Shown: piece after piece, positions 2,847 to 37,248 of the stretch | Layout of the letters: every line of letters begins with the position of its first letter | Numbering within the stretch: the first letter of the stretch is position 1 | Source of the DNA: Oscillospiraceae bacterium | GTDB taxonomy: Bacteria; Bacillota; Clostridia; Oscillospirales; Oscillospiraceae | Direction: 5' to 3' | Length of the DNA: 39,831 nt | NCBI GenBank assembly: GCA_022800525.1 | Contig: JAAWQM010000026.1 | Span: forward strand, 1-39,831 | Made by a program: the position numbers and the translations under genes | Notes under the pieces: generated by a model | The model's database searches: none | Seen by the model: the letters and a program-made list of their open reading frames with translations, nothing else | Told to the model about the DNA's origin: nothing

Positions 2847-3944
2847 CTATTCCTCCAGCTTTCCAGCCTGCCGGGCCAGCTCCAGGAGGTCGCGGTTCCT
2901 TTCATTCATTGGTCCAAAGGCCCGGAGGGGGCACAGCGTCCGGCGGCACTGCCCCATGAGCTCCGCCGCCTGCCGGAAGGCCGCGTCCCCGACAGGCTGA
3001 AAGGCCCGCTCTCCCACCACCCGGACTGCCAGCGCCGACGCCACCGGAAAGTCCAGATCGTTCTCCTGCAGAACTCCGGCGGCGAAGGGCGTCCCCTGCC
3101 GCTGGAGCTGGCGGTAAACAGAAATCCCGGCCCCGCCGCCGCCGATCACAAACACCTCCGGCGCGCCGTTCGCAGCTTCCAGCTCCAGCGAACCGAAAAG
3201 CGCGTTGTAGCTGCCCCGGGCTGCGCCGTAAAGCTTCATCATGTATTCCGAGGTAAATATCTCCTCAGGCGTCCCCTGCCGCTCAATCCTGTCCCCATGG
3301 ACGCAGACCACATGGTCGCTGACCTTCTGGGCCAGATCCAGCTCGTGTAGGCTCATGAGCACCGCCAGCCGCCTGGAGCGGACCATATCCTTCAGAATTG
3401 CCAGCAGCTCCAGCTTGTGCCGGATGTCCAGAAAGGACGTCGGCTCGTCCAACACCAGCACCTCCGGCTCCTGGCACAGCGCCCGGGCCAGCAGCACCCG
3501 CTGGCGCTGCCCATCGCTGATGCGGGAAAAATCCTGCTCCGCCAAGGCGGAGGCGTGGACCAGCTCCAGGCACAGCCCCACCTTCTCCCAGTCCTCCCTG
3601 GTCAGAATTCCCAGCCGCCCGGTGTAGGGATAGCGGCCTGTAGCCACCACGTCCCCGCAGGTCATGAGCTCCGGCTGGATGTGGCTGGTCATGAGCACGC
3701 TCATGCGCTGGGAGACCTCCCGCTCGGTGAGCTTCGCCATGTCCCGGCTGTCCAGGCACACCGTGCCCCGGACCAGCGCCAGCTGGCGGATGATGCTTTT
3801 CAAAATCGTAGATTTTCCCGCGCCGTTGGGACCAATAAGGGTCATAATCTCCCCAGGCCGCAGGGACAGGGCGATCTCCCGGATCAACGCCCTGCCGTCA
3901 TAGCCCACATCAAGGCTCTCCGTATATAAGCGGACGCCGTCCAT
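2847..3944 (-). CDS. ABC transporter ATPase, BtuD/FecE type, with extra C-terminal domain
   Basis: This 365-residue protein is the nucleotide-binding subunit of a corrinoid/heme/siderophore importer. Walker A is GPNGAGKST (38-46), the signature is ISDGQRQR (142-149, a variant of LSGGQ), Walker B is VLVLDEPTS (163-170) and the switch His is in MSLHELD (near 200). FecE-type ATPases usually end near residue 255. Here about 110 residues follow, beginning with VFVIGGGGAGISVYRQL, a glycine-rich beta-alpha start that looks like a nucleotide-binding fold. The start ATG 3944 shares one base with the permease stop (TGATG). It is the last gene of the unit led by the cobalamin riboswitch, so cobalamin or a related tetrapyrrole is the best guess for cargo. 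Confidence 0.85.
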   Translation of the reverse strand: MDGVRLYTESLDVGYDGRALIREIALSLRPGEIMTLIGPNGAGKSTILKSIIRQLALVRGTVCLDSRDMAKLTEREVSQRMSVLMTSHIQPELMTCGDVVATGRYPYTGRLGILTREDWEKVGLCLELVHASALAEQDFSRISDGQRQRVLLARALCQEPEVLVLDEPTSFLDIRHKLELLAILKDMVRSRRLAVLMSLHELDLAQKVSDHVVCVHGDRIERQGTPEEIFTSEYMMKLYGAARGSYNALFGSLELEAANGAPEVFVIGGGGAGISVYRQLQRQGTPFAAGVLQENDLDFPVASALAVRVVGERAFQPVGDAAFRQAAELMGQCRRTLCPLRAFGPMNERNRDLLELARQAGKLEE

Positions 3945-4960
3945 CACTCCCGCCCCCCTTTCGCCGCGCTGCGCCGGGAGGCCATGAGGTACAGCACCAC
4001 CGGCGCGCCGAATACGGCGGTGACGGAGCTGATGCTCATGTCCCTGGGGGCGAAGGCCGTGCGGGCGATGAGGTCGCACAGCAGGCAGAACGCAGCGCCG
4101 CCCAGAAAGCAGCCGGGGATAATAATAATGGGCTTGGCGGTGCGGAACAGGCTTTTGATAAGGTGCGGAGCCGCGATGCCCACAAAGGAAATAGGCCCTG
4201 CGAAGGCCGTGACGCAGGCGGAGAGGATGCTGGACAGCAGAATCAGCTCCACCCGGAACCGCTTGATGTTCACGCCCATGTTCTGGGCGTAGACTTCCCC
4301 CATCTGGTAAGCGCCAATGGGCTTGGACAGCAGGAAGGTCAGCCCCAGCGACACCCCCACCACCCAGGCCATGAGCTGCACATTCTCCCAGCTGGTGCCG
4401 GAAAAGCTGCCCAGAGACCAGTTGTGGAGGTTGACAATGTTGGAGTCGTCGGCGAAGGTCACAACAAAGTCGGTGATGGCGGAGCAGATATAGCCGATCA
4501 TCACGCCGCTGACCACCAGCATGCTCATTTGCTTCACCCGGCGGCTCAGCAGCAGGATAAACCCCATGGACAGCATGGAGCCGGCGAACGCCCCAACAAT
4601 CAGCGCGGCGGAGCCGAGCACGATCCCCCGGCTGAGGAACAGGACCATCATCAGGGAGACGGTCAGCTTGGCCCCCGAGGAGATGCCCAGCACGAAGGGA
4701 CCCGCGATGGGATTGGCGAAGAAGGTCTGGAGCAGGAACCCGGACACAGACAGCGCCCCGCCCAGGATGGCGGCGGCCAGGACCCGCGGGAGCCGGATGC
4801 CCCAGATGATGCCGGAATGGTCATGCAGCAGGGCGCCCATGATCTCCCCGGCGGTAAAAGCCACGCTGCCTGCGCTGACATTCCACACCAGCAGCGCCAG
4901 CGCCAGCGCGGTCAGAAAGGCGAAGCTGAGGCCGTATCGTACATACCGAGTGTTTTTCAT
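3944..4960 (-). CDS. ABC transporter permease, BtuC/FecCD type
   Basis: The 338-residue protein has about nine or ten hydrophobic segments and clear FecCD landmarks: RLPRVLAAAILGGALSVSGFLLQTFFANPIAGPFVLGISSGA in the first third, and AGPISFVGIAAPHL near residue 260, followed by APRDMSISSVTAVFGAPVVLYLM at the end. These belong to permeases that import vitamin B12, heme or ferric siderophores. ATG 4960 lies 5 nt after the stop of the binding-protein gene and has GGAGTG upstream. The riboswitch at the head of the operon favours cobalamin, but the sequence alone does not fix the cargo. Confidence 0.9.
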   Translation of the reverse strand: MKNTRYVRYGLSFAFLTALALALLVWNVSAGSVAFTAGEIMGALLHDHSGIIWGIRLPRVLAAAILGGALSVSGFLLQTFFANPIAGPFVLGISSGAKLTVSLMMVLFLSRGIVLGSAALIVGAFAGSMLSMGFILLLSRRVKQMSMLVVSGVMIGYICSAITDFVVTFADDSNIVNLHNWSLGSFSGTSWENVQLMAWVVGVSLGLTFLLSKPIGAYQMGEVYAQNMGVNIKRFRVELILLSSILSACVTAFAGPISFVGIAAPHLIKSLFRTAKPIIIIPGCFLGGAAFCLLCDLIARTAFAPRDMSISSVTAVFGAPVVLYLMASRRSAAKGGRE

Positions 4961-4965
4961 GGCCG

Positions 4966-6180
4966 TCACTCCAGCCGGTACAGGTAGTTCATATTTCCCG
5001 CGTCCTCCCCGGTCAGGATGGTGTGGATATCCAGGATCATGCCGCCCACGGACTGGGACTCCTGGAACATACTCTTGCCGGTACACCACACGTCGCCGCT
5101 CCGTACCGCCTTGAAGTCCGCCAGGGGAGCGCTCTTGGCGATGAGCTCATCGATGGTTTGCAGGCTGGCCTCGATGGCGCTGTTGTAGATCAGCACGTCC
5201 GCGTCCCTGGCGGCGTCATAGAAGGTTTCCATCTGGATATTCATAGTGGACAGGGCGTTTTCCTGCTCAGCCTCCAGGCTGTCAAACACATACACGCCCC
5301 CGGCCAGTTCGATGGCCTTGGCGATGTAGTCCCCGGATTTGCGCACGGTGACGCTGCCGTTGGAGGTCACGGAGAAGAAGGCCACCGTCTTGCCGGTGGT
5401 CTCCTGCTTCAGCACAGGCTCCAGGTGTTCAAGCTGCTGGTTGAAATAGGCTTCCGCCTCCGTGCGCTTGTTCAGCAGCACACCGTAGAGCTTGATCCAC
5501 TCCATCCGCCCCAGGGGGTGGCTCTCATAGCTGGACCGCTCCACCAGCACGGGGATACCGAACCGCTCAAGCTGCTCCTTGACTTCCGGGTTGTGGTAGA
5601 TCATGGTGGACTCCAGGGCCAGATCGCAGCCCTTGTCTACAATCAGCTCGTAGTCCGGGGCGCTGTACTTTCCGGCGTAGACCATCCTTCCGTCCTCCAT
5701 GGCCTGACGGGCTTCGGGGATGTACCAGCCCTCCGCCTGGGTGCCGGACATTGTGACCGCGCTGATGGCGTCCAGTTTCCGGAAGCAGTCCATGGCGGCG
5801 GTGGCCTGGAGGTAGATGTTGTCCAGAGGCTGGCGGAGGACGGTTACGTCCTCCGGCGTTCCATGCGGAACAAACGACTCCTCCGGCACCAGCAGATAGG
5901 TCTCCTGGTCAATGACGATGCGGGCGTAGCCGAACTCGCTGAATTCCACAGAAAAACACTGGGCATAGTCCAACTCCAGCATACTCCACCCTGAAGCATT
6001 CTCATCCCACATGGTCTCCCAGGTGAATTGAGCTTGGTTCTCCCAGTCCTCCGGCCGCCCGGACGGTTCCTCCTGCATGGGCGGCCCTTCCGGATCATTA
6101 TCTGGCGCAGGGGCCTTCTGTCCGCAGGCGCACAAGAGGGCCAGCAGCAAAAGGGGCAGAAAAATCTTCCAACGCTTCAT
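4966..6180 (-). CDS. ABC transporter substrate-binding lipoprotein, BtuF/FecB (TroA-like) type
   Basis: This 404-residue protein starts with a lipoprotein signal (KIFLPLLLLALLCAC, lipid-bearing Cys19). It continues with a class-III binding-protein fold: a DAISAVTMSG strand, a VDKGCDLALESTMIYHNPEVKEQL segment typical of FecB proteins, PVLVERSSYESHPLGRMEWIKLYG, and a C-terminal lobe with VAFFSVTSNGSVTVRKSGDYI. It presents cargo to the permease from the outer membrane leaflet. The start at 6180 follows GAGGTGG and lies 10 nt from the upstream lipoprotein stop. About 60 residues with DNDPEGPP-like composition form a linker after the lipidation site. Confidence 0.88.
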   Translation of the reverse strand: MKRWKIFLPLLLLALLCACGQKAPAPDNDPEGPPMQEEPSGRPEDWENQAQFTWETMWDENASGWSMLELDYAQCFSVEFSEFGYARIVIDQETYLLVPEESFVPHGTPEDVTVLRQPLDNIYLQATAAMDCFRKLDAISAVTMSGTQAEGWYIPEARQAMEDGRMVYAGKYSAPDYELIVDKGCDLALESTMIYHNPEVKEQLERFGIPVLVERSSYESHPLGRMEWIKLYGVLLNKRTEAEAYFNQQLEHLEPVLKQETTGKTVAFFSVTSNGSVTVRKSGDYIAKAIELAGGVYVFDSLEAEQENALSTMNIQMETFYDAARDADVLIYNSAIEASLQTIDELIAKSAPLADFKAVRSGDVWCTGKSMFQESQSVGGMILDIHTILTGEDAGNMNYLYRLE

Positions 6181-6190
6181 CCCCGCCACC

Positions 6191-6889
6191 TCACTGCTTC
6201 TGCAGGGTGGAGGAATCAAAATACAGGGTATATTCCACCTCGTGAGGCTCGCTCATGGCGACGGTATCCGCAATGACGTCAAGCTTCTGGTCAAAAGCCG
6301 CGACAGGTATCTCAAAGGTGGAGTTGCCCTCCGTATTGGTCTGGAGGTACTTCTCTCCGCCCACCTTCATGTAGTCAAAGTTAGGGCTGCTCCAGACGAT
6401 GACCGCATAGAATTTGCCATTCTCGCAGCGCAGCATGGCGGGGGAATCCACCTTGGCCCGGCCCGTACCGCCCTCCAGGGTGACGCTGGCGGTATAGGTT
6501 CCGTCCTCCGGGACGGTTTCCACAGGCTCAGGGGCGGGCTCAGGTTCCTTTTCAGGTTCTGATTCTGGCACGGGCGCAAGCCCGGAAGCAGGCTCCGCTT
6601 CTTTGGCAGGCTCCTCCGGCTGAACGTCCGCCGCCTCGCCGCCGGTATCCTGTGCCGCATCGTCTCCGGTGGGTTCCACAGGTTCGGCGTCCTGGGGCTG
6701 CTCGTTTTTCGCAGGCGCGGGGGCGCTGGCAGGCGGGGCGGTCTCCCCGCCCTGCTCTGCACCTGTCCCATCGGCGGCAGGAGCCGGGGCAGGGGGCAGA
6801 GGGGTATCTTCGCCGCCGCATCCGGACAGCAGGGCAAGAGTCAGCGCCATTGCCGTCAGCAGAGCAAGGCATTTGTTTCTGTTTCGCAT
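6191..6889 (-). CDS. Lipoprotein with Pro/Glu-rich stalk and C-terminal beta domain (possible cargo-binding relay protein)
   Basis: The 232-residue protein has a lipobox, LLSGCGG (Cys24), then about 90 residues rich in Pro, Glu and Ala that should form an extended stalk. A domain of about 110 residues follows, starting DGTYTASVTLEGGTGRAKV and running through IVWSSPNFDYMKVGGEKYL to VEYTLYFDSS. This domain resembles the C-terminal domain of the S-layer chelatase encoded just upstream (shared pattern DGxYTxxVT, GKxxA, Y, PVxAxDQxL, LxFxS). The S..Y and Y..Y residues recall NEAT heme-binding domains, but I cannot confirm that relation. It is the first gene after the cobalamin riboswitch and is packed 10 nt before the binding-protein gene. 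GGAGGAG precedes ATG 6889. Confidence 0.7.
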   Translation of the reverse strand: MRNRNKCLALLTAMALTLALLSGCGGEDTPLPPAPAPAADGTGAEQGGETAPPASAPAPAKNEQPQDAEPVEPTGDDAAQDTGGEAADVQPEEPAKEAEPASGLAPVPESEPEKEPEPAPEPVETVPEDGTYTASVTLEGGTGRAKVDSPAMLRCENGKFYAVIVWSSPNFDYMKVGGEKYLQTNTEGNSTFEIPVAAFDQKLDVIADTVAMSEPHEVEYTLYFDSSTLQKQ

Positions 6890-7152: not shown

Positions 7153-7161
7153 TATCAAGCG

Positions 7162-7355
7162 GCCACTGTTCCGGCAGGTCTCCTGGCTCACGGCTCTCCC
7201 GCATCCTCACCTTCCCAGGTCTCCCCAGTGGCGCACGAGGACGCATCGCCGCATACAGTGACGGAATCGCGCAGGCTTCTCACCTGCTTCCCTATTCTCC
7301 GCCGCGTCCGTCCCTGCGCAGCAGGGCACAGACCGGCGGCACCGGATGCTTCCAA
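7162..7355 (-). promoter_or_regulatory. Cobalamin (B12) riboswitch
   Basis: On the minus strand this stretch reads in order CCGGTGCC, AATAGGGAAGCAGGTG, GATTCCGTCACTGTAT, GCGCCACTGGG, GGGAAGG and GTGAGCCAGGAGACCTGCC. These are the conserved blocks of cobalamin aptamers, including the AGCCAGGAGACCTGCC B12 box. It lies about 270 nt ahead of the lipoprotein-BtuFCD-like genes and after the S-layer chelatase gene. A TACAAT element at 7362-7367 could be the -10 of its own promoter. High cobalamin is expected to lower expression of the downstream genes; the mechanism (transcription or translation) cannot be decided here. Confidence 0.93.
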
Positions 7356-7386
7356 GATGAAATTGTAGTTGGAAACACAAGGAACA

Positions 7387-7415
7387 GCGCCGCGGAGCCT
7401 GATACTCCGCGGCGC
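7387..7415 (-). terminator. Hairpin after the S-layer chelatase gene
   Basis: GCGCCGCGGAG and CTCCGCGGCGC form an 11-bp perfect stem with a 7-nt loop, 24 nt past the stop. The following minus-strand bases TGTTCCTTGTGTTT are only moderately T-rich, so some readthrough into the riboswitch is possible. Confidence 0.6.
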
Positions 7416-7438: not shown

Positions 7439-9331
7439 TTACTTCGCCTCGGCAGTGGCGGACTCGAAGGTCAGACCGCGGTCAAACCACCTGGAACCCA
7501 GCGCGGCATAGGCCAGCTCCTGGTCCAGTGCCTCGACGGGAACGGTGAAGGTGTACGCGCCCTTAGCATTTTCAACATAGTCAATCAGTCCGGACCCGGC
7601 CTTCTCCGCATCGGCGGCGGTACCCGCGTACATCTGCGTGTAGCCCGTACCGCTGAGGGTCAGCAGGGCGGACATCTTACCGCCTTCTACGGTCAGCTCA
7701 CAGGCCACCACGCGGAACATCCTGGAATCGCTGGTCACGTCAATGGTATACACGCCGTCCGCCAGCTCCGCGCTCTCAGCGGGAGCGGAAGGCTCTTCGG
7801 TTTTGCTGCCGGTGTTCGCGGGGTTGGGCTCCTTTTCAACCGAGGTCTCGCTCAGCAGCTCGGCGTTCTGGGCGTGCTGAACCAGTATCTGCTGGATACC
7901 CTCAATTTCGCCCAGGCCCTTGATATCGGTGACAACCTCGTAGCCCGCCTCCGTGAAAACGGTTTTCCAGGAACCCTCTTCATCACCGGCCATATCGTTG
8001 TTGGCATGGTCGCCGGCAACGATCATCATGGGACGCAGGACCACGCGGGTATACTCCCCGTCCTGGACCATTCTAAGCACGTCCTGCACGTCGGGGTGGG
8101 CCTCAACGGTTCCGACAAAATAGTTGTCGTAGCCTGCGGCCTTGAGCTCCTCCTGCATTCTGGCGTAGATGCCGTTGGCGGCGGCCTCGGTGCCGTGGCC
8201 CATATAGCAGATGGCGGTCTTGCCGTCGTCAAAGCTGGCCGCAGCCTCCACTAGAGCCAGCGCCACATCGGTGAAGTCCTTGTCGCTGGTCAGCAGGGGC
8301 GCGCCGATCCTGATGGTCTCAAAATCATCCGCCCAGTTGTCCTCCAGCTCCTTGCGCAGGTCGCCGTACTCATAGCCGTTCATCAGGTGGGTGGGCTGGA
8401 CCAGCAGCTCCTTCACGCCGTTGTCCTTGGCACGCTGGAGCGCTTCCTGGACGTTGTCGATTTTCACGCCGTCCCGGCGCAGGACATGCTCGATGATGAT
8501 GTCGGCGGTAAAGCCCCGGCGGACGGAGTAGCCGGTAAACGCCTTCTCCAGAGCGCCCTCAATCCCGCCGATGGTGGCGGCGCGGTTCTCATTGTAGCTG
8601 GTGCCGAAGCTGACTACCAGCAGCTCCTTTTCGCCGATGCTGTTCCCGTTGCGGGCGTCGTCCTTGGAGGCGTCGCCAGTGCTGCTGTCATCCATGTAGC
8701 GGCAGATGATGGCGGCAGCCTCCGCACGGGTCACGTTCCCCTGGGGGTCCAGCTTTCCGCCGTCGCTGCCACTGATGTACTCGCTGGCTACGGCCCAGTT
8801 CATGAACGCGGGGGCCCAGGATTCCAGTTGGTCCACGTCGGGATAACTGGAGAGCACATCCTCGCTGCTGCGCAGTTCCTCTGCGCCGGCCAGCCTTGCG
8901 GCGAAGCCGTTGAGGATCTTGGCGATGGCCTGACGCTCAACCGGGGCGTTGGGCTCAAAGGTGGTATCGCCGGTGCCGTTGACGATGCTCTGAGAGCTGG
9001 CCCAGAGCACAGCGTCCTTGTACTTGGCACCGTCGGGTACGTCGGTGAAGGGATTGGCGCTGATGGAGCCAGTGACCTTCCCGGACTTCTGCGCAAGACG
9101 GTACAGAGCCAGGACTAGGTCGGCGCGGGTCATGTTCTCGTCGGGGGCAAAGGTGGTTGCGGTTTTGCCGTCAATCAGGCCCAGCTCCACCACGTTCTTG
9201 ATGTATTCCTCGCCCCAGTGGCCGGAGATATCGCTGTAACCGCCGTTCTCCGACGCGAACGCGGTCCCGGCAAGACCCAGGACCATGACCGTTGCCAGCA
9301 GCATCGCCGCCAGCTTATTCCGCTTTCTCAT
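7439..9331 (-). CDS. S-layer-anchored CbiK-type tetrapyrrole chelatase (signal peptide, three SLH domains, CbiK domain, C-terminal beta domain)
   Basis: The 630-residue protein begins with a signal peptide (LAAMLLATVMVLGLAGTAFA). Three SLH repeats follow (about 30-80, 93-150, 160-215; YSDISGHWGEEYI, FTDVPDGAKYKDAV, YPDVDQLESWAPAF), which bind secondary cell-wall polymer. Residues 235-500 are a complete CbiK domain: LLVVSFGTSYNENR, RRDGVKIDNVQEAL, CYMGHGTEAAAN, VEAHPDV and MIVAGDHANNDMAGD, so both metal-site His residues of CbiK are present. Known CbiK inserts cobalt (or iron) into sirohydrochlorin. An exported form could insert, remove or simply bind a metal tetrapyrrole at the surface. The last 105 residues resemble the domain of the lipoprotein downstream. 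ATG 9331 is chosen for the signal peptide; AGGAGG lies 13 nt upstream, slightly far. Confidence 0.9.
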   Translation of the reverse strand: MRKRNKLAAMLLATVMVLGLAGTAFASENGGYSDISGHWGEEYIKNVVELGLIDGKTATTFAPDENMTRADLVLALYRLAQKSGKVTGSISANPFTDVPDGAKYKDAVLWASSQSIVNGTGDTTFEPNAPVERQAIAKILNGFAARLAGAEELRSSEDVLSSYPDVDQLESWAPAFMNWAVASEYISGSDGGKLDPQGNVTRAEAAAIICRYMDDSSTGDASKDDARNGNSIGEKELLVVSFGTSYNENRAATIGGIEGALEKAFTGYSVRRGFTADIIIEHVLRRDGVKIDNVQEALQRAKDNGVKELLVQPTHLMNGYEYGDLRKELEDNWADDFETIRIGAPLLTSDKDFTDVALALVEAAASFDDGKTAICYMGHGTEAAANGIYARMQEELKAAGYDNYFVGTVEAHPDVQDVLRMVQDGEYTRVVLRPMMIVAGDHANNDMAGDEEGSWKTVFTEAGYEVVTDIKGLGEIEGIQQILVQHAQNAELLSETSVEKEPNPANTGSKTEEPSAPAESAELADGVYTIDVTSDSRMFRVVACELTVEGGKMSALLTLSGTGYTQMYAGTAADAEKAGSGLIDYVENAKGAYTFTVPVEALDQELAYAALGSRWFDRGLTFESATAEAK

Positions 9332-9426: not shown

Positions 9427-9435
9427 ATTATACCA
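9427..9435 (-). promoter_or_regulatory. Extended -10 promoter element for the S-layer chelatase gene
   Basis: TGG-TATAAT reads on the minus strand about 95 nt before ATG 9331, an extended -10. No good -35 lies at 17 bp; a TTGACA at 9473-9478 is too far upstream. Confidence 0.5.
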
Positions 9436-9486
9436 TACTCTTTCCCGTTTGGCTAGTCCCTTTTTCCAAGTTTGTCAAAATTTTTA

Positions 9487-9530
9487 CAAAACAGAGGGGG
9501 CGGTACAGCCGAAGCCATACCGCCCCCCTC
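9487..9530 (-). terminator. Intrinsic terminator after the siroheme protein gene
   Basis: GAGGGGGGCGGTA and TACCGCCCCCTC pair on the minus strand 20 nt after the stop, followed by TGTTTTGT. It separates the siroheme-protein gene from the chelatase promoter. Confidence 0.75.
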
Positions 9531-9549: not shown

Positions 9550-10503
9550 TCAGCAGGTCGCGCCGCCCGCCATATGCAGCTCAGCGTCCAGAATCGCCTG
9601 CTTGCGCTCCAGCAGCTCATTGCCCAGCAGCTGCTGCTCCACATTCTCAAAGCCCAGCCGCTCGATGGTCTTGGCAAAACGCTCGCCGGTCTTGCCCTGT
9701 TCGCGGAACAGCAGGATGGCCTTCTCGATGACCGCCAGAGCCTCCTCCTGATCAGTGAAAATTTTGGTCAGGGCCTGACCCTGGGCCACCTTCTTGCCCC
9801 AGCGTCCGCCAATGTAAATCTTGTAGCCGTATGTTCCCTCGTCCAGCGCGTCGAAGTGGCAGGTCCCGATGCAGCGTCCGCAGTTGTTGCAGATGTCCTT
9901 GTCAATCTCCAGCACACCGTCCTCCAGTTTAGCCGCGCCCATGGGGCAGGTCTGGACCACGCCGCACTTCTTGCAGCCGTTGCACTCGTCCTGGTCCAGC
10001 CCGGGGATGCGCTGGCCGATGATGCCCAGGTCGTTCAGGTCGGGCTTGACGCAGTTGTTGGGACAGCCGCCCACGGCAATCTTGAACTTGTGGGGCAGCT
10101 TCACGCCGCGATAGCCCTCATAGAAGCGGTGATGGATCTCCTCGCTGAGTCCGAAGGAATCCAGCAGGCCGTACTGGCAGGTGGTGCCCTTGCAGGCCAC
10201 CACAGGGCGCACCATGGAGCCGGTGCCGCCGGTGACAAGCCCCTCCTTGGCGATGTACGCCTGGAACGCCTCAATCTTCTCGTAGGGGATGCCCTGGACC
10301 TCAATGGTCAGGCGGGTGGTAAAGGTGACGATGCCGTTGCCGAACTTCTCGGCGGCCTCAGCGATGCACCGCTGCTGGGCGGCGGTGATTTTGCCGTTGA
10401 TGGTGATGATGCGTCCGGAGAAGTTGTCCGTGCCCTTGTTGGACAGGAAGCCCATTGACTTTACTCTCTTTTCGTCCGCCACGCTGACTGTCAGTGTTGC
10501 CAT
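9550..10503 (-). CDS. Siroheme/4Fe-4S sulfite (nitrite) reductase-like protein with ferredoxin domain
   Basis: The 317-residue protein combines a nitrite/sulfite reductase half-domain with two [4Fe-4S] ferredoxin motifs. The reductase part shows TTRLTIEVQGI, then CKGTTCQYG and GGCPNNCVKPDLNDLGI, the Cys pairs that hold the siroheme-bridged cluster. The ferredoxin part shows CNGCKKCGVVQTCPMGAAK and CNNCGRCIGTCHFDALDEG. This layout matches anaerobic sulfite reductase subunit C (AsrC) and other small dissimilatory-type sulfite reductase-like proteins. No AsrA or AsrB gene is next to it, so electron donor and substrate are open. AAAAGGAGAA precedes ATG 10503. The upstream gene encodes a thiol/disulfide flavoenzyme with a rhodanese domain, suggesting sulfur metabolism. 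Confidence 0.85.
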   Translation of the reverse strand: MATLTVSVADEKRVKSMGFLSNKGTDNFSGRIITINGKITAAQQRCIAEAAEKFGNGIVTFTTRLTIEVQGIPYEKIEAFQAYIAKEGLVTGGTGSMVRPVVACKGTTCQYGLLDSFGLSEEIHHRFYEGYRGVKLPHKFKIAVGGCPNNCVKPDLNDLGIIGQRIPGLDQDECNGCKKCGVVQTCPMGAAKLEDGVLEIDKDICNNCGRCIGTCHFDALDEGTYGYKIYIGGRWGKKVAQGQALTKIFTDQEEALAVIEKAILLFREQGKTGERFAKTIERLGFENVEQQLLGNELLERKQAILDAELHMAGGATC

Positions 10504-10637
10504 AGTTGTGTTCTCCTTTTCTTTTTTCAAATGAATGATGGTTGCTTCTGAACCGAATGGCAGGATGTAATATATGCCATGCTTTGCGGCTGCCGTCGCA
10601 AAACGGCTCAAATCTTCCGGATTTTATATTCGGAAAT

Positions 10638-10726: not shown

Positions 10727-12355
10727 TCACTCCTCAATCTCCGTAAAGGTAGTGCCGCCCTCCAGCACTTTGGTGTTGGTGTAGCCGTAATACTTCATAC
10801 GGTTCTGGGCCATGTAGGCCCGCCTGCCCTTGGTGCAGACCAGCAGCAGCTTCGCGTCCTTGGCCAGCCCCGGGATGTCCCCCTCAATCCTGGTCAGGTC
10901 CACATACTTCTTGTCCGGCAGGGCCGGGGCGAGGGCGCAGTCGATGATTTCATACCCCTCGGCGGCCCCATTGGCGTACTCCTGGGGCGTAATCGACTCC
11001 AGCCCGCCGTCCAGCTTGTTCATCAAAATGTTGATGCTCTGGGCAAAGGGATGGATGGCCGTGGAAAACGGCGGCGCGTAGGCGAAATCCATCGCCGCCA
11101 GCTGATCCACTGTCGCCCCCAGGGAAATCGCCGTCACGCCGATATCCGTGATCTTGTCCACCGCGCCAGGACCCAGCACCTGTACGCCCAACAGCTTCCT
11201 GGTCGTCCTGTCCGCCGTCAGCTTCACGATGAACAGCCCGGAGCCGGGGTAATAATGGGCCTTGTCGTCCAGTACGGTGAGGACAGTCTCCACATCGTAC
11301 CCCCCGGCCCTGGCGGCTGTCTCCGTCAGACCTGTGCGGCCTGTGTTCAGTCCGCCGGGCAGCCTGGCGACCCCCGTCCCCAGCACGCCGGGGTACACAC
11401 TCTCCCTCCCCGCGATGTTCTTCGCCAGAATGCGCCCGGCAATGTTGGCCGTGGAGCCCATGGGAGACCACGCCGGTTTGCCGGTCTGACGGTTGGCGAC
11501 CATGGCGCAGTCGCCGGCTGCGTAGATGTCCGGCACATTGGTGCGCAGATGCTGGTCCGTCAGGATGGTCCCCTTGAACATCTCAATTCCGGTCCCCTCC
11601 AGGAACCCGGTGTTGGGCCGGATGCCGATGGCCAACACCAGTGCGTCGGCCTTCATCCCGCGCTTGCTGGTCAGAACCTTCTCCACCCTGCCGTTTCCTT
11701 CCACGCCCTCCAGGGACACGCCGGTCATGGGCATGACACCCGCGTCAGCCATCTTGTTCTCCACATACTCGCTGAGCTCAGGGTCCAGGAAGTTGGGCAG
11801 CACGTGGGGCGCATAGTCGATCACCGTCGTCTTCACGCCCTTGGCGGCTAGATTCTCCGCCACCTCCAGGCCGATAAAGCCGCCCCCGGCCACCACGGCC
11901 CGCTTGATCTCCCCGGCCTCCACCGCCGCCCGCAGGCCGATGGCGTCGTCGGGAGTGCGCATTACGAACACATTTTTCAGGTCCAGCCCGTTGACCGGAG
12001 GCACGAAGGGGGACGCGCCGGTGGCGATAACCAGCTTGTCATAGCCATACTCCGCCGCTTCGCCGGTCTCCAGGTCCTTGGCCTCCACGGTGTGCTTGTC
12101 AGGATGTACCGCCACAGCCTCCGTCCTGGTCCTGACCCTGGCTCCGGTGAGGGCGGCGAACTTCTCCGGCGTATTGACAATCAGCTCGCTCTTTTCGCGG
12201 ATCACACCGCCCACATAGTAGGGCAGGCCGCAGCCCGCGTAGGAGATGTCCCTGCCCTTGGTCAGCACCGTCACCTCACAGCTCTGGTCCTCCCGCAGGA
12301 GCTTGGCCGCGACCTTTGTTCCGGCAGCAACGCCGCCCAATATCAGTACCTTCAT
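10727..12355 (-). CDS. CoA-disulfide reductase / NADH-dependent flavoprotein with C-terminal rhodanese domain
   Basis: The 542-residue protein is a pyridine-nucleotide-disulfide oxidoreductase of the CoA-disulfide-reductase type. An FAD-binding motif, ILGGVAAGTKVAAKL, starts it; YAGCGLPYYVGG carries the single redox Cys typical of CoADR and Nox enzymes; GGGFIGLEVAENL binds NAD(P)H; and IYAAGDCA is the second FAD motif. The last 80 residues form a rhodanese domain with the loop CTKGRR (C-x2-G-x-R), so its persulfide Cys is present. Such CoADR-rhodanese fusions reduce CoA persulfide, polysulfide or CoA disulfide. The gene lies 223 nt upstream of the siroheme protein gene on the same strand, each with a possible promoter. 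GAGGAG precedes ATG 12355. Confidence 0.88.
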   Translation of the reverse strand: MKVLILGGVAAGTKVAAKLLREDQSCEVTVLTKGRDISYAGCGLPYYVGGVIREKSELIVNTPEKFAALTGARVRTRTEAVAVHPDKHTVEAKDLETGEAAEYGYDKLVIATGASPFVPPVNGLDLKNVFVMRTPDDAIGLRAAVEAGEIKRAVVAGGGFIGLEVAENLAAKGVKTTVIDYAPHVLPNFLDPELSEYVENKMADAGVMPMTGVSLEGVEGNGRVEKVLTSKRGMKADALVLAIGIRPNTGFLEGTGIEMFKGTILTDQHLRTNVPDIYAAGDCAMVANRQTGKPAWSPMGSTANIAGRILAKNIAGRESVYPGVLGTGVARLPGGLNTGRTGLTETAARAGGYDVETVLTVLDDKAHYYPGSGLFIVKLTADRTTRKLLGVQVLGPGAVDKITDIGVTAISLGATVDQLAAMDFAYAPPFSTAIHPFAQSINILMNKLDGGLESITPQEYANGAAEGYEIIDCALAPALPDKKYVDLTRIEGDIPGLAKDAKLLLVCTKGRRAYMAQNRMKYYGYTNTKVLEGGTTFTEIEE

Positions 12356-12506
12356 GTTTTGCTCTCCTCTTCTCGACTTATTTTGGACGGACCGGCGGAC
12401 ACGCCTGCCCATACAATCCTACTTGATTCCAGGGTAATGTAAAGCGAGGCTATCCCCACCGGAACGGCCTCACAGATCCAACATATTGTCCGGGAGCTAC
12501 GGTTTC

Positions 12507-37051: not shown

Positions 37052-37059
37052 AGTAGCAA

Positions 37060-37228
37060 CATGATAGAGGTTGCGGACGCGAAGAAGCTGTGGGAGCCGG
37101 CGGGCTGGGAACACAGTGGAGGCAGATCCGCCGAACCGGCGGCCCAGGCATGGGCCTCTGGTGGGGCCGGCGGGAACACCGCCGGGACTGTCCGTGAAGT
37201 CTGTCGGCTTCATGGTTGCGCTATCTGC
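37060..37228 (+). promoter_or_regulatory. Lysine riboswitch (L box)
   Basis: The aptamer starts GATAGAGGTTGCGGACGCGA and closes with GCGCTATC to form P1. Inner conserved blocks are GGCAGATCCGCCGAA, a CTGGTGGGGCCGGC segment, and GGGACTGTCC. This order is that of L-box RNAs. A terminator follows 21 nt later, so lysine should cause premature termination ahead of dapA. Confidence 0.93.
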
Positions 37229-37248
37229 TTGCATGAAACACTGTTCAT

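Follow-up and report, generated by a model that had tools for sequence, protein, structure and literature searches.

P0001, a protein in which a CbiK chelatase domain stands behind SLH domains, probably acts at the cell surface as part of a cobalamin-regulated system that takes up early intermediates of the corrin ring. It is encoded in a 39,831-nt stretch of DNA from an Oscillospiraceae bacterium (assembly GCA_022800525.1, contig JAAWQM010000026.1); the whole stretch is referred to here as the window. This reading is drawn from four lines of evidence taken together: a cobalamin riboswitch, the gene context, NEAT-domain partners, and early steps of ring synthesis that are missing from many genomes carrying the system.

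How would such a system work? Factors II and III are released by cobalt-starved B12 producers. The anchored CbiK domain would capture extracellular sirohydrochlorin (factor II), or factor III, which is C20-methylated, at the cell surface and would insert cobalt into the ring or exchange iron for cobalt. The ring would then be handed over NEAT domains to a binding lipoprotein and imported by a FecCD-type ATP-binding cassette (ABC) transporter, and cytoplasmic Cbi enzymes would finish it. In the window's lineage, SLH domains would have replaced the lipid anchor once. We infer that the substrate is a sirohydrochlorin-type ring, that transfer is directed inward, and that exported CbiK chelates outside the cell. 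A broader proposal is held only tentatively, with somewhat less than even confidence: that B12-controlled salvage of this kind is widespread in gut Clostridia, which import unfinished corrin rings with cobalt insertion at the surface; that the imported ring is already factor III in the subset without SUMT and CbiL; and that the same explanation covers IhtB of Porphyromonas.

Architecture and active site of P0001

The open reading frame of P0001 begins with a start Met at position 9331. The parts of the protein are as follows:

7439–9331, minus strand: SLH-CbiK-NEAT protein P0001, 630 aa (translation, Pfam, fold search)
9251–9331, minus strand: putative signal peptide, residues 1–27 (read by eye from the translation)
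8690–9238, minus strand: three SLH domains, approximately residues 32–214 (PF00395; SLH structures 3pyw and 6bt4)
7862–8629, minus strand: CbiK chelatase domain, residues 235–490, with E321, H379 and H442 (PF06180; 1qgo)
7442–7765, minus strand: C-terminal NEAT-like domain “A”, residues ~523–630 (domain A alignment; fold match to NEAT structure 4myp)

The N-terminus, MRKRNKLAAMLLATVMVLGLAGTAFASE, resembles a signal for signal peptidase I, as judged by eye rather than with a predictor. Behind it, the Pfam SLH family matches three stretches (E = 6.8e-34), which places P0001 in the SLH-anchored class. The CbiK family scores 245 bits against a cut-off of 26.2 (E = 1e-72), and Salmonella CbiK (1qgo) is matched in sequence at E = 1.8e-39. 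A complete CbiK domain behind a signal peptide and three SLH domains, with both metal-site histidine motifs, had been described in an earlier, sequence-only reading of the window, and these results bear out that description. An AlphaFold model of P0001, built with nine sequences (predicted local distance difference test score, pLDDT, 75.7), has the CbiK fold, with a template modelling (TM) score of 0.93 of target against 1qgo. Export, surface anchoring and an intact active site are supported. Salmonella CbiK leads the fold matches, ahead of FetB (which, going by the name, we equate with IhtB) and the Desulfovibrio periplasmic CbiK; lower in the ranking are ferrochelatases, SLH proteins of known structure and a NEAT domain. 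Salmonella CbiK, which is cytoplasmic, shares its fold and metal ligands with P0001, but its 264-residue chain has no extra domains.

Is the domain likely to be an active chelatase? E321, H379 and H442 align with E89, H145 and H207 of Salmonella CbiK in a residue alignment to 1qgo, and E89 is presumably a metal ligand there. The importance of H145 and H207 for cobalt insertion has been noted (PMC7689651; statements from this and the other papers cited refer to the available portions of their texts). The E/H/H ligands are invariant in the 11 exported CbiK forms that were aligned, and also in an alignment with the CbiK-A-B fusions. Given these intact ligands, we favor real chelation by P0001 over mere binding. 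The NCBIfam equivalog for sirohydrochlorin cobaltochelatase (NF047852) gives P0001 211.6 bits, under its cut-off of 400 bits, which argues against a plain cobaltochelatase label.

NEAT-like domains of CbiK and its partner lipoproteins

Three features lie beyond the sequence-only reading: the C-terminal NEAT-like domain, the downstream transporter genes, and a cobalamin riboswitch. The C-terminal domain of P0001 has no Pfam match at E ≤0.05 except one unrelated weak match, and no Pfam NEAT match was found for P0001. Its assignment comes from alignment of residues ~523–630 with domain A of the CbiK-A-B fusions and from the NEAT match (4myp) that the whole P0001 model gave in the fold search. Partner lipoproteins in this family mostly have two domains, of which A is the counterpart of the P0001 C-terminal domain and B that of the single domain of P0002, the lipoprotein encoded downstream of P0001. 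The domains occur in three layouts: separate A-B lipoproteins, CbiK-A with a separate B protein (as in the window), and CbiK-A-B fusions (L166, L180 and L192; here and below, L and G numbers denote individual loci and genomes).

The Pfam NEAT family (PF05031) gives P0002 19.1 bits, under its cut-off of 32.8, and the P0002 domain resembles domain B of the tandem-NEAT lipoproteins. Among 20 related tandem lipoproteins, 17 have a Pfam NEAT match at E ≤0.1, and one (L228) exceeds the cut-off with 33.6 bits. A structure was predicted for one tandem partner lipoprotein (pLDDT 88), and its 16 best fold matches are all NEAT proteins. Good superpositions span one domain (IsdX1, TM score 0.69–0.70 of target), and matches spanning both domains have low TM scores (0.28 at best). 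A sequence-profile search of the PDB for NEAT relatives returned only two chance-level matches, to lipoprotein signal regions.

A cobalamin riboswitch and transporter genes beside cbiK

The gene for P0001 (cbiK) is flanked by the following features, in order of transcription:

9495–9528, minus strand: terminator-like hairpin between the end of the upstream NIR_SIR gene and cbiK (consensus scan)
9427–9455, minus strand: possible promoter upstream of cbiK (consensus scan, 10 of 12 matches, weak evidence)
7387–7415, minus strand: terminator-like hairpin directly 3′ of the cbiK stop codon (consensus scan)
7156–7361, minus strand: cobalamin riboswitch RF00174, between cbiK and the transporter genes (Rfam)
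6191–6889, minus strand: lipoprotein P0002 with one NEAT-like domain “B” (PF05031, E = 0.0018, below cut-off)
4966–6180, minus strand: substrate-binding lipoprotein P0003, Peripla_BP_2 (PF01497, E = 4.2e-28)
3944–4960, minus strand: FecCD/BtuC-type permease P0004, from its probable Met (PF01032, E = 1.8e-73)
2847–3944, minus strand: ABC transporter ATPase P0005, from its probable Met (PF00005, E = 2e-27)

The riboswitch match is strong (101.3 bits, gathering threshold 31.5, E = 2.1e-24) and lies ahead of P0002–P0005 and behind cbiK. Because of this position, the flanking hairpins and the promoter-like site, the transporter genes sit where B12 could control them, and cbiK may be under its own promoter, as far as consensus scans can tell.

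Could the transporter simply import finished or nearly finished corrinoids? On this account, P0002–P0005 would form a BtuFCD-type importer of cobamides or cobinamide, and the CbiK and NEAT domains would bind corrinoids without chelatase action. The top NCBIfam match of the permease is a BtuC model, and the two top matches of the ATPase are FecE and a corrinoid ATPase model, all of them below cut-off. Riboswitch control also fits B12 import. However, such an importer would have no need of the cbiA-C-D-F-G-H-JET genes that adjoin related modules, and the metal ligands are invariant in the exported forms aligned. We therefore regard corrinoid import as quite unlikely.

Exported CbiK is a family of mostly lipoproteins

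How common is exported CbiK? In 295 genomes of Oscillospirales, the order to which the window belongs, CbiK matches were found in 60 (59 over cut-off), and 21 of these 60 have an exported form; in one of the 21, G051, a contig edge cuts the gene, and its assignment as exported comes from the operon. The expectation that CbiK acts in the cytoplasm thus needs qualifying for this order. A scan of named genomes found at least 583 relatives of exported CbiK, and the best 80 were analyzed, most of them from metagenome-assembled genomes. About 75 of the 80 have a signal peptide or lipobox by a crude rule corrected by eye; among the remainder, L197, L199 and L213 are cut at the 5′ end by a contig edge, and L212 and L227 have no signal. 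The exported relatives are mostly lipoproteins and form a Clostridia family. These counts bear on the possibility that the export reading is wrong and that P0001 is a cytoplasmic CbiK of the ordinary kind with unusual fusions. CbiK is usually cytoplasmic, and the signals of the exported forms were judged without a predictor. However, signals recur across the relatives, SLH domains and NEAT fusions are surface features, and the partner proteins start like lipoproteins, so a cytoplasmic location is extremely improbable.

The gene order is conserved: CbiK, NEAT lipoprotein, binding protein, FecCD permease, ATPase. All parts of this module were detected for 61 of the 80 best named relatives, and contig ends cut some of the others. 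A riboswitch profile made from 12 copies detected with Rfam matches within 1.5 kb upstream of exported cbiK at 65 of the 80 loci (64 of the 75 with at least 900 bp of upstream sequence), and Rfam itself detects a cobalamin riboswitch at 10 of 16 further loci scanned. Some loci depart from the standard module. In L202 (8969–10831), a single lipoprotein carries two tandem CbiK domains, and four loci (L037, L039, L041 and L042) have two tandem genes for substrate-binding proteins. The exported CbiK proteins of L033–L043 form a sub-clade, excluding L044, in which an additional segment follows the lipobox, ahead of CbiK, and about 20 residues are inserted within the CbiK domain.

A tree built from 79 CbiK domains places all exported forms on one side of a single branch (support 100/99). 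The sequence-only reading had treated the SLH-anchored CbiK as a stand-alone protein and had suggested a search for the architecture. Four SLH forms were found, which are not isolated: they form one nested clade (100/100) beside a lipoprotein, L203. Because they nest among lipoproteins in this way, the SLH anchor is most simply explained as a single swap for the lipid anchor in the window's lineage, within a large clade of mostly lipoproteins. A search of the open-licence literature found no SLH-CbiK protein and no exported CbiK tied to cobalamin uptake.

Corrin genes without early steps

In several genomes, cbiA or cbiD and further cbi genes directly follow the module in the same direction (L043, L040, L037, L054, L035, L036, L059 and L099), and cbi genes lie in the available flank of 35 of the 80 named loci. 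CbiC was found in all 20 genomes of the order in which CbiK is exported only, one match (G107) being partial. HemC was not found in 16 of these 20, versus 5 of the 33 genomes with cytoplasmic CbiK and CbiC (Fisher p = 4.9e-6). The difference is also seen when genus-by-state combinations are counted (11 of 15 versus 4 of 18, p = 0.005) and among genomes at least 90% complete (14 of 18 versus 4 of 32, p = 6.3e-6). SUMT is not over cut-off in the same 16 genomes, which thus have the profile of precursor salvagers, with HemC and SUMT missing and the corrin pathway present (HemA, HemB and HemD lay outside the search). A second sample, of 50 named genomes for which completeness is not given, has no HemC in 40, among them 32 of the 35 with cbi genes beside exported cbiK. 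No CobN match was found in 20 genomes with exported CbiK (19 of the exported-only set plus G260), and 15 of these 20 have CbiX matches, every one of which falls within a CbiK gene.

CbiL too is often missing: it was found in 32 of the 33 cytoplasmic genomes versus 9 of the 20 exported-only genomes (one of the nine is a fragment). TP-methylases were counted in 13 genomes to check whether CbiL is absent or was missed by the profile. Nine have exactly four, which by position are CbiF, CbiH, CbiE and an unlinked one taken as RsmI, and therefore have neither SUMT nor CbiL. These nine genomes seem to start from a ring that is already C20-methylated, unless an unrelated enzyme replaces CbiL. G201, where HemC and SUMT are present and CbiL is not, complicates this picture. 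Evtepia gabavorous KLE1738 has the module and adjoining corrin genes with CbiL, and no HemC match; since this is a named strain, the idea is testable.

Other genomes in the samples show related patterns. G036 (L104) has no CbiK; its operon comprises a binding protein, permease, ATPase, cbiA, cbiC, part of cbiG, cbiJET and cbiB. It has no HemC, SUMT or CbiL match, and of its two TP-methylases one is unlinked and one lies in the JET fusion, with no CbiF or CbiH, as if a still later intermediate were imported. G023 and G092 have a cytoplasmic CbiK and CbiC without HemC and SUMT; their CbiK proteins (L027 and L023) are the nearest neighbors of the exported clade, with weak support (93/64), and perhaps these organisms import metal-free rings and chelate inside. 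Three genomes (G013, G125 and G194; L045, L051 and L052) have a divergent CbiK near a SirC-like gene, and no CbiC; HemC is also nearby in L045 and L052. This divergent CbiK is perhaps a siroheme ferrochelatase.

The window's genome and points against early-intermediate uptake

Several observations weigh against the uptake of early intermediates as set out above. First, the window's own genome is not a salvager: HemC, a SirC-like gene, CbiL and SUMT are all present, together on one contig, and CbiA, C, D, F, G, H, JET and B lie on another. HemC was found in three of the four SLH genomes (the window's, L150 and L169). Two further genomes, G221 and G288, have HemC, SUMT, a SirC-like gene and CbiL, and G201 has the first three but no CbiL. 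With early genes in these genomes, the system cannot always be there to make up for missing steps. Second, the absence of HemC is not confined to exported CbiK, since it extends to the five cytoplasmic-CbiK genomes counted above, one of which is only 62% complete. Third, the exported forms are one clade, and an independent-pairs test on the CbiK tree yields one pair and hence has no power. The association with HemC absence is therefore not phylogenetically independent on that tree, because the exported form has one origin and the genomes counted share the gene through descent or transfer. Fourth, the regulatory evidence is uneven. The window's cbiK precedes the riboswitch and is separated from it by a terminator-like hairpin of its own; Rfam and profile scans found no riboswitch at the other three SLH loci; and weaker profile matches occur near several cytoplasmic cbiK genes too. 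For the last reason, control by the riboswitch points to a B12 role without being a mark of export.

What might the system do in the window's organism, which should be able to make its own sirohydrochlorin, judging by its genes? A search of this genome for further CbiK, CbiX or CobN matches gave none, leaving the exported CbiK as the only cobaltochelatase found, although the assembly is 96.2% complete and a cytoplasmic chelatase may be missing from it. There the system would thus either add to the cell's own supply of rings or provide the cobaltochelatase that is otherwise missing. That no second chelatase could be recognized is weak evidence, because another genome, G222, has CbiC, HemC, SUMT and CbiL with no CbiK match (CbiX and CobN were not searched). 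These facts also bear on a prototrophic loop, in which the cell makes sirohydrochlorin, loses or exports it, has cobalt inserted at its surface and takes the product up again. A complement of ring genes from HemC to CbiB beside a single, exported chelatase fits such a loop. However, the loop needs an unknown exporter, it is exposed to the same gap in the assembly, and it leaves the HemC-less carriers unexplained; we consider it improbable.

Comparison with known systems and the haem alternative

The uptake of early corrin intermediates can be compared with several described systems. The closest is IhtA–E of Porphyromonas gingivalis, where, as in the Clostridia, an exported CbiK-fold protein (the lipoprotein IhtB/FetB) is found with a binding protein, permease and ATPase (PMC10913741). 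The two differ in that the Porphyromonas system includes IhtA, a TonB-dependent receptor, and has been assigned to haem/iron, while the Clostridia system has an SLH or lipid anchor, NEAT domains and a cobalamin riboswitch. The likeness to IhtB had been pointed out from the sequence and is confirmed, with FetB the best PDB sequence match as well as second in the fold search. In Desulfovibrio vulgaris, the periplasmic CbiK (2xvx, 2xvz) is also an exported CbiK domain with the fold of P0001, but the solved chain has 269 residues and no SLH or NEAT domain. A single B12 element in Desulfovibrio regulates cbiK-cbiL and btuCDF; the available part of the source does not say whether this cbiK is the periplasmic copy (PMC545781). 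As judged by fold match, the system in the window resembles the Isd-type haem relays of Gram-positive bacteria in placing NEAT domains on surface proteins and lipoproteins. It differs from them in coupling NEAT to a chelatase and B12 control, and the NEAT-like domain of P0001 lacks a Pfam NEAT match. An Isd NEAT relay hands its tetrapyrrole to an ABC transporter. Finally, the carriers resemble the tetrapyrrole precursor salvagers of Shelton et al. in having the corrin and loop pathway without the early steps; that work leaves open environmental uptake or a novel route and, in the portion available, names no transporter or exported chelatase (PMC6461909). Precorrin-2 salvagers amount to 0.6% of genomes (PMC8123684), and the window's own genome, with HemC and SUMT, differs from them.

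The likeness to IhtB also speaks for haem or iron acquisition, in which exported CbiK would strip iron from haem or bind it, as has been suggested for IhtB/FetB of Porphyromonas, and the transporter would import haem or iron. FetB is the PDB sequence closest to P0001, IhtC–E have the same make-up as the window's transporter (PMC10913741), and IhtB has been called a putative ferrochelatase/reverse ferrochelatase (PMC13227078). In addition, the nearest NEAT structures bind haem, and a FeoA-FeoB gene adjoins the module in L043. Cobalamin riboswitch control argues against a haem role, as do the corrin-ring genes adjoining the module and the lack of HemC and SUMT in genomes that keep their corrin genes, making it unlikely. 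The earlier suggestion that the protein loads or strips metal from scavenged tetrapyrroles is near the explanation preferred here, while its haem component is weakened by the riboswitch and corrin context. Conversely, IhtB may be the same kind of system as that proposed for P0001, because its haem reading rests on homology to CbiK (PMC10913741) and because P. gingivalis is reported to lack precorrin-2 synthesis and keep later corrin steps (PMC6461909, PMC4410737).

Implications

What are the implications of uptake of unfinished corrin rings? First, it would provide a candidate uptake system for bacteria predicted to build cobamides from scavenged tetrapyrroles, for which the route was left open (PMC6461909). 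Second, it bears on an old puzzle, reported in 2000, that P. gingivalis has a corrin pathway and is unable to make precorrin-2 (cited via PMC6461909 and PMC4410737). Third, if the proposal is true, gut bacteria trade corrin-ring intermediates, and a chelation step of a cofactor pathway takes place outside the cell on a shared community intermediate. Fourth, metabolic reconstructions that score CbiK and corrin genes as B12 prototrophy (gene list in PMC6593275) would misjudge such genomes. Fifth, CbiK-type surface proteins now held to be haem systems would need to be re-tested.

Other features of the window

Two genes upstream of cbiK lie on the same strand: a sulfite/nitrite-reductase-like protein (NIR_SIR, P0007) at 9550–10611, minus strand, and a CoA-disulfide-reductase-like protein with a weak rhodanese match at 10727–12412, minus strand. 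A siroheme role for CbiK together with P0007 was considered and rejected: the terminator-like hairpin that parts P0007 from cbiK has 15 pairs, and in a tblastn listing neither P0007 nor P0008 appeared next to any of the other three SLH forms. Elsewhere in the window, a lysine riboswitch lies at 37057–37231 on the plus strand (66.4 bits).

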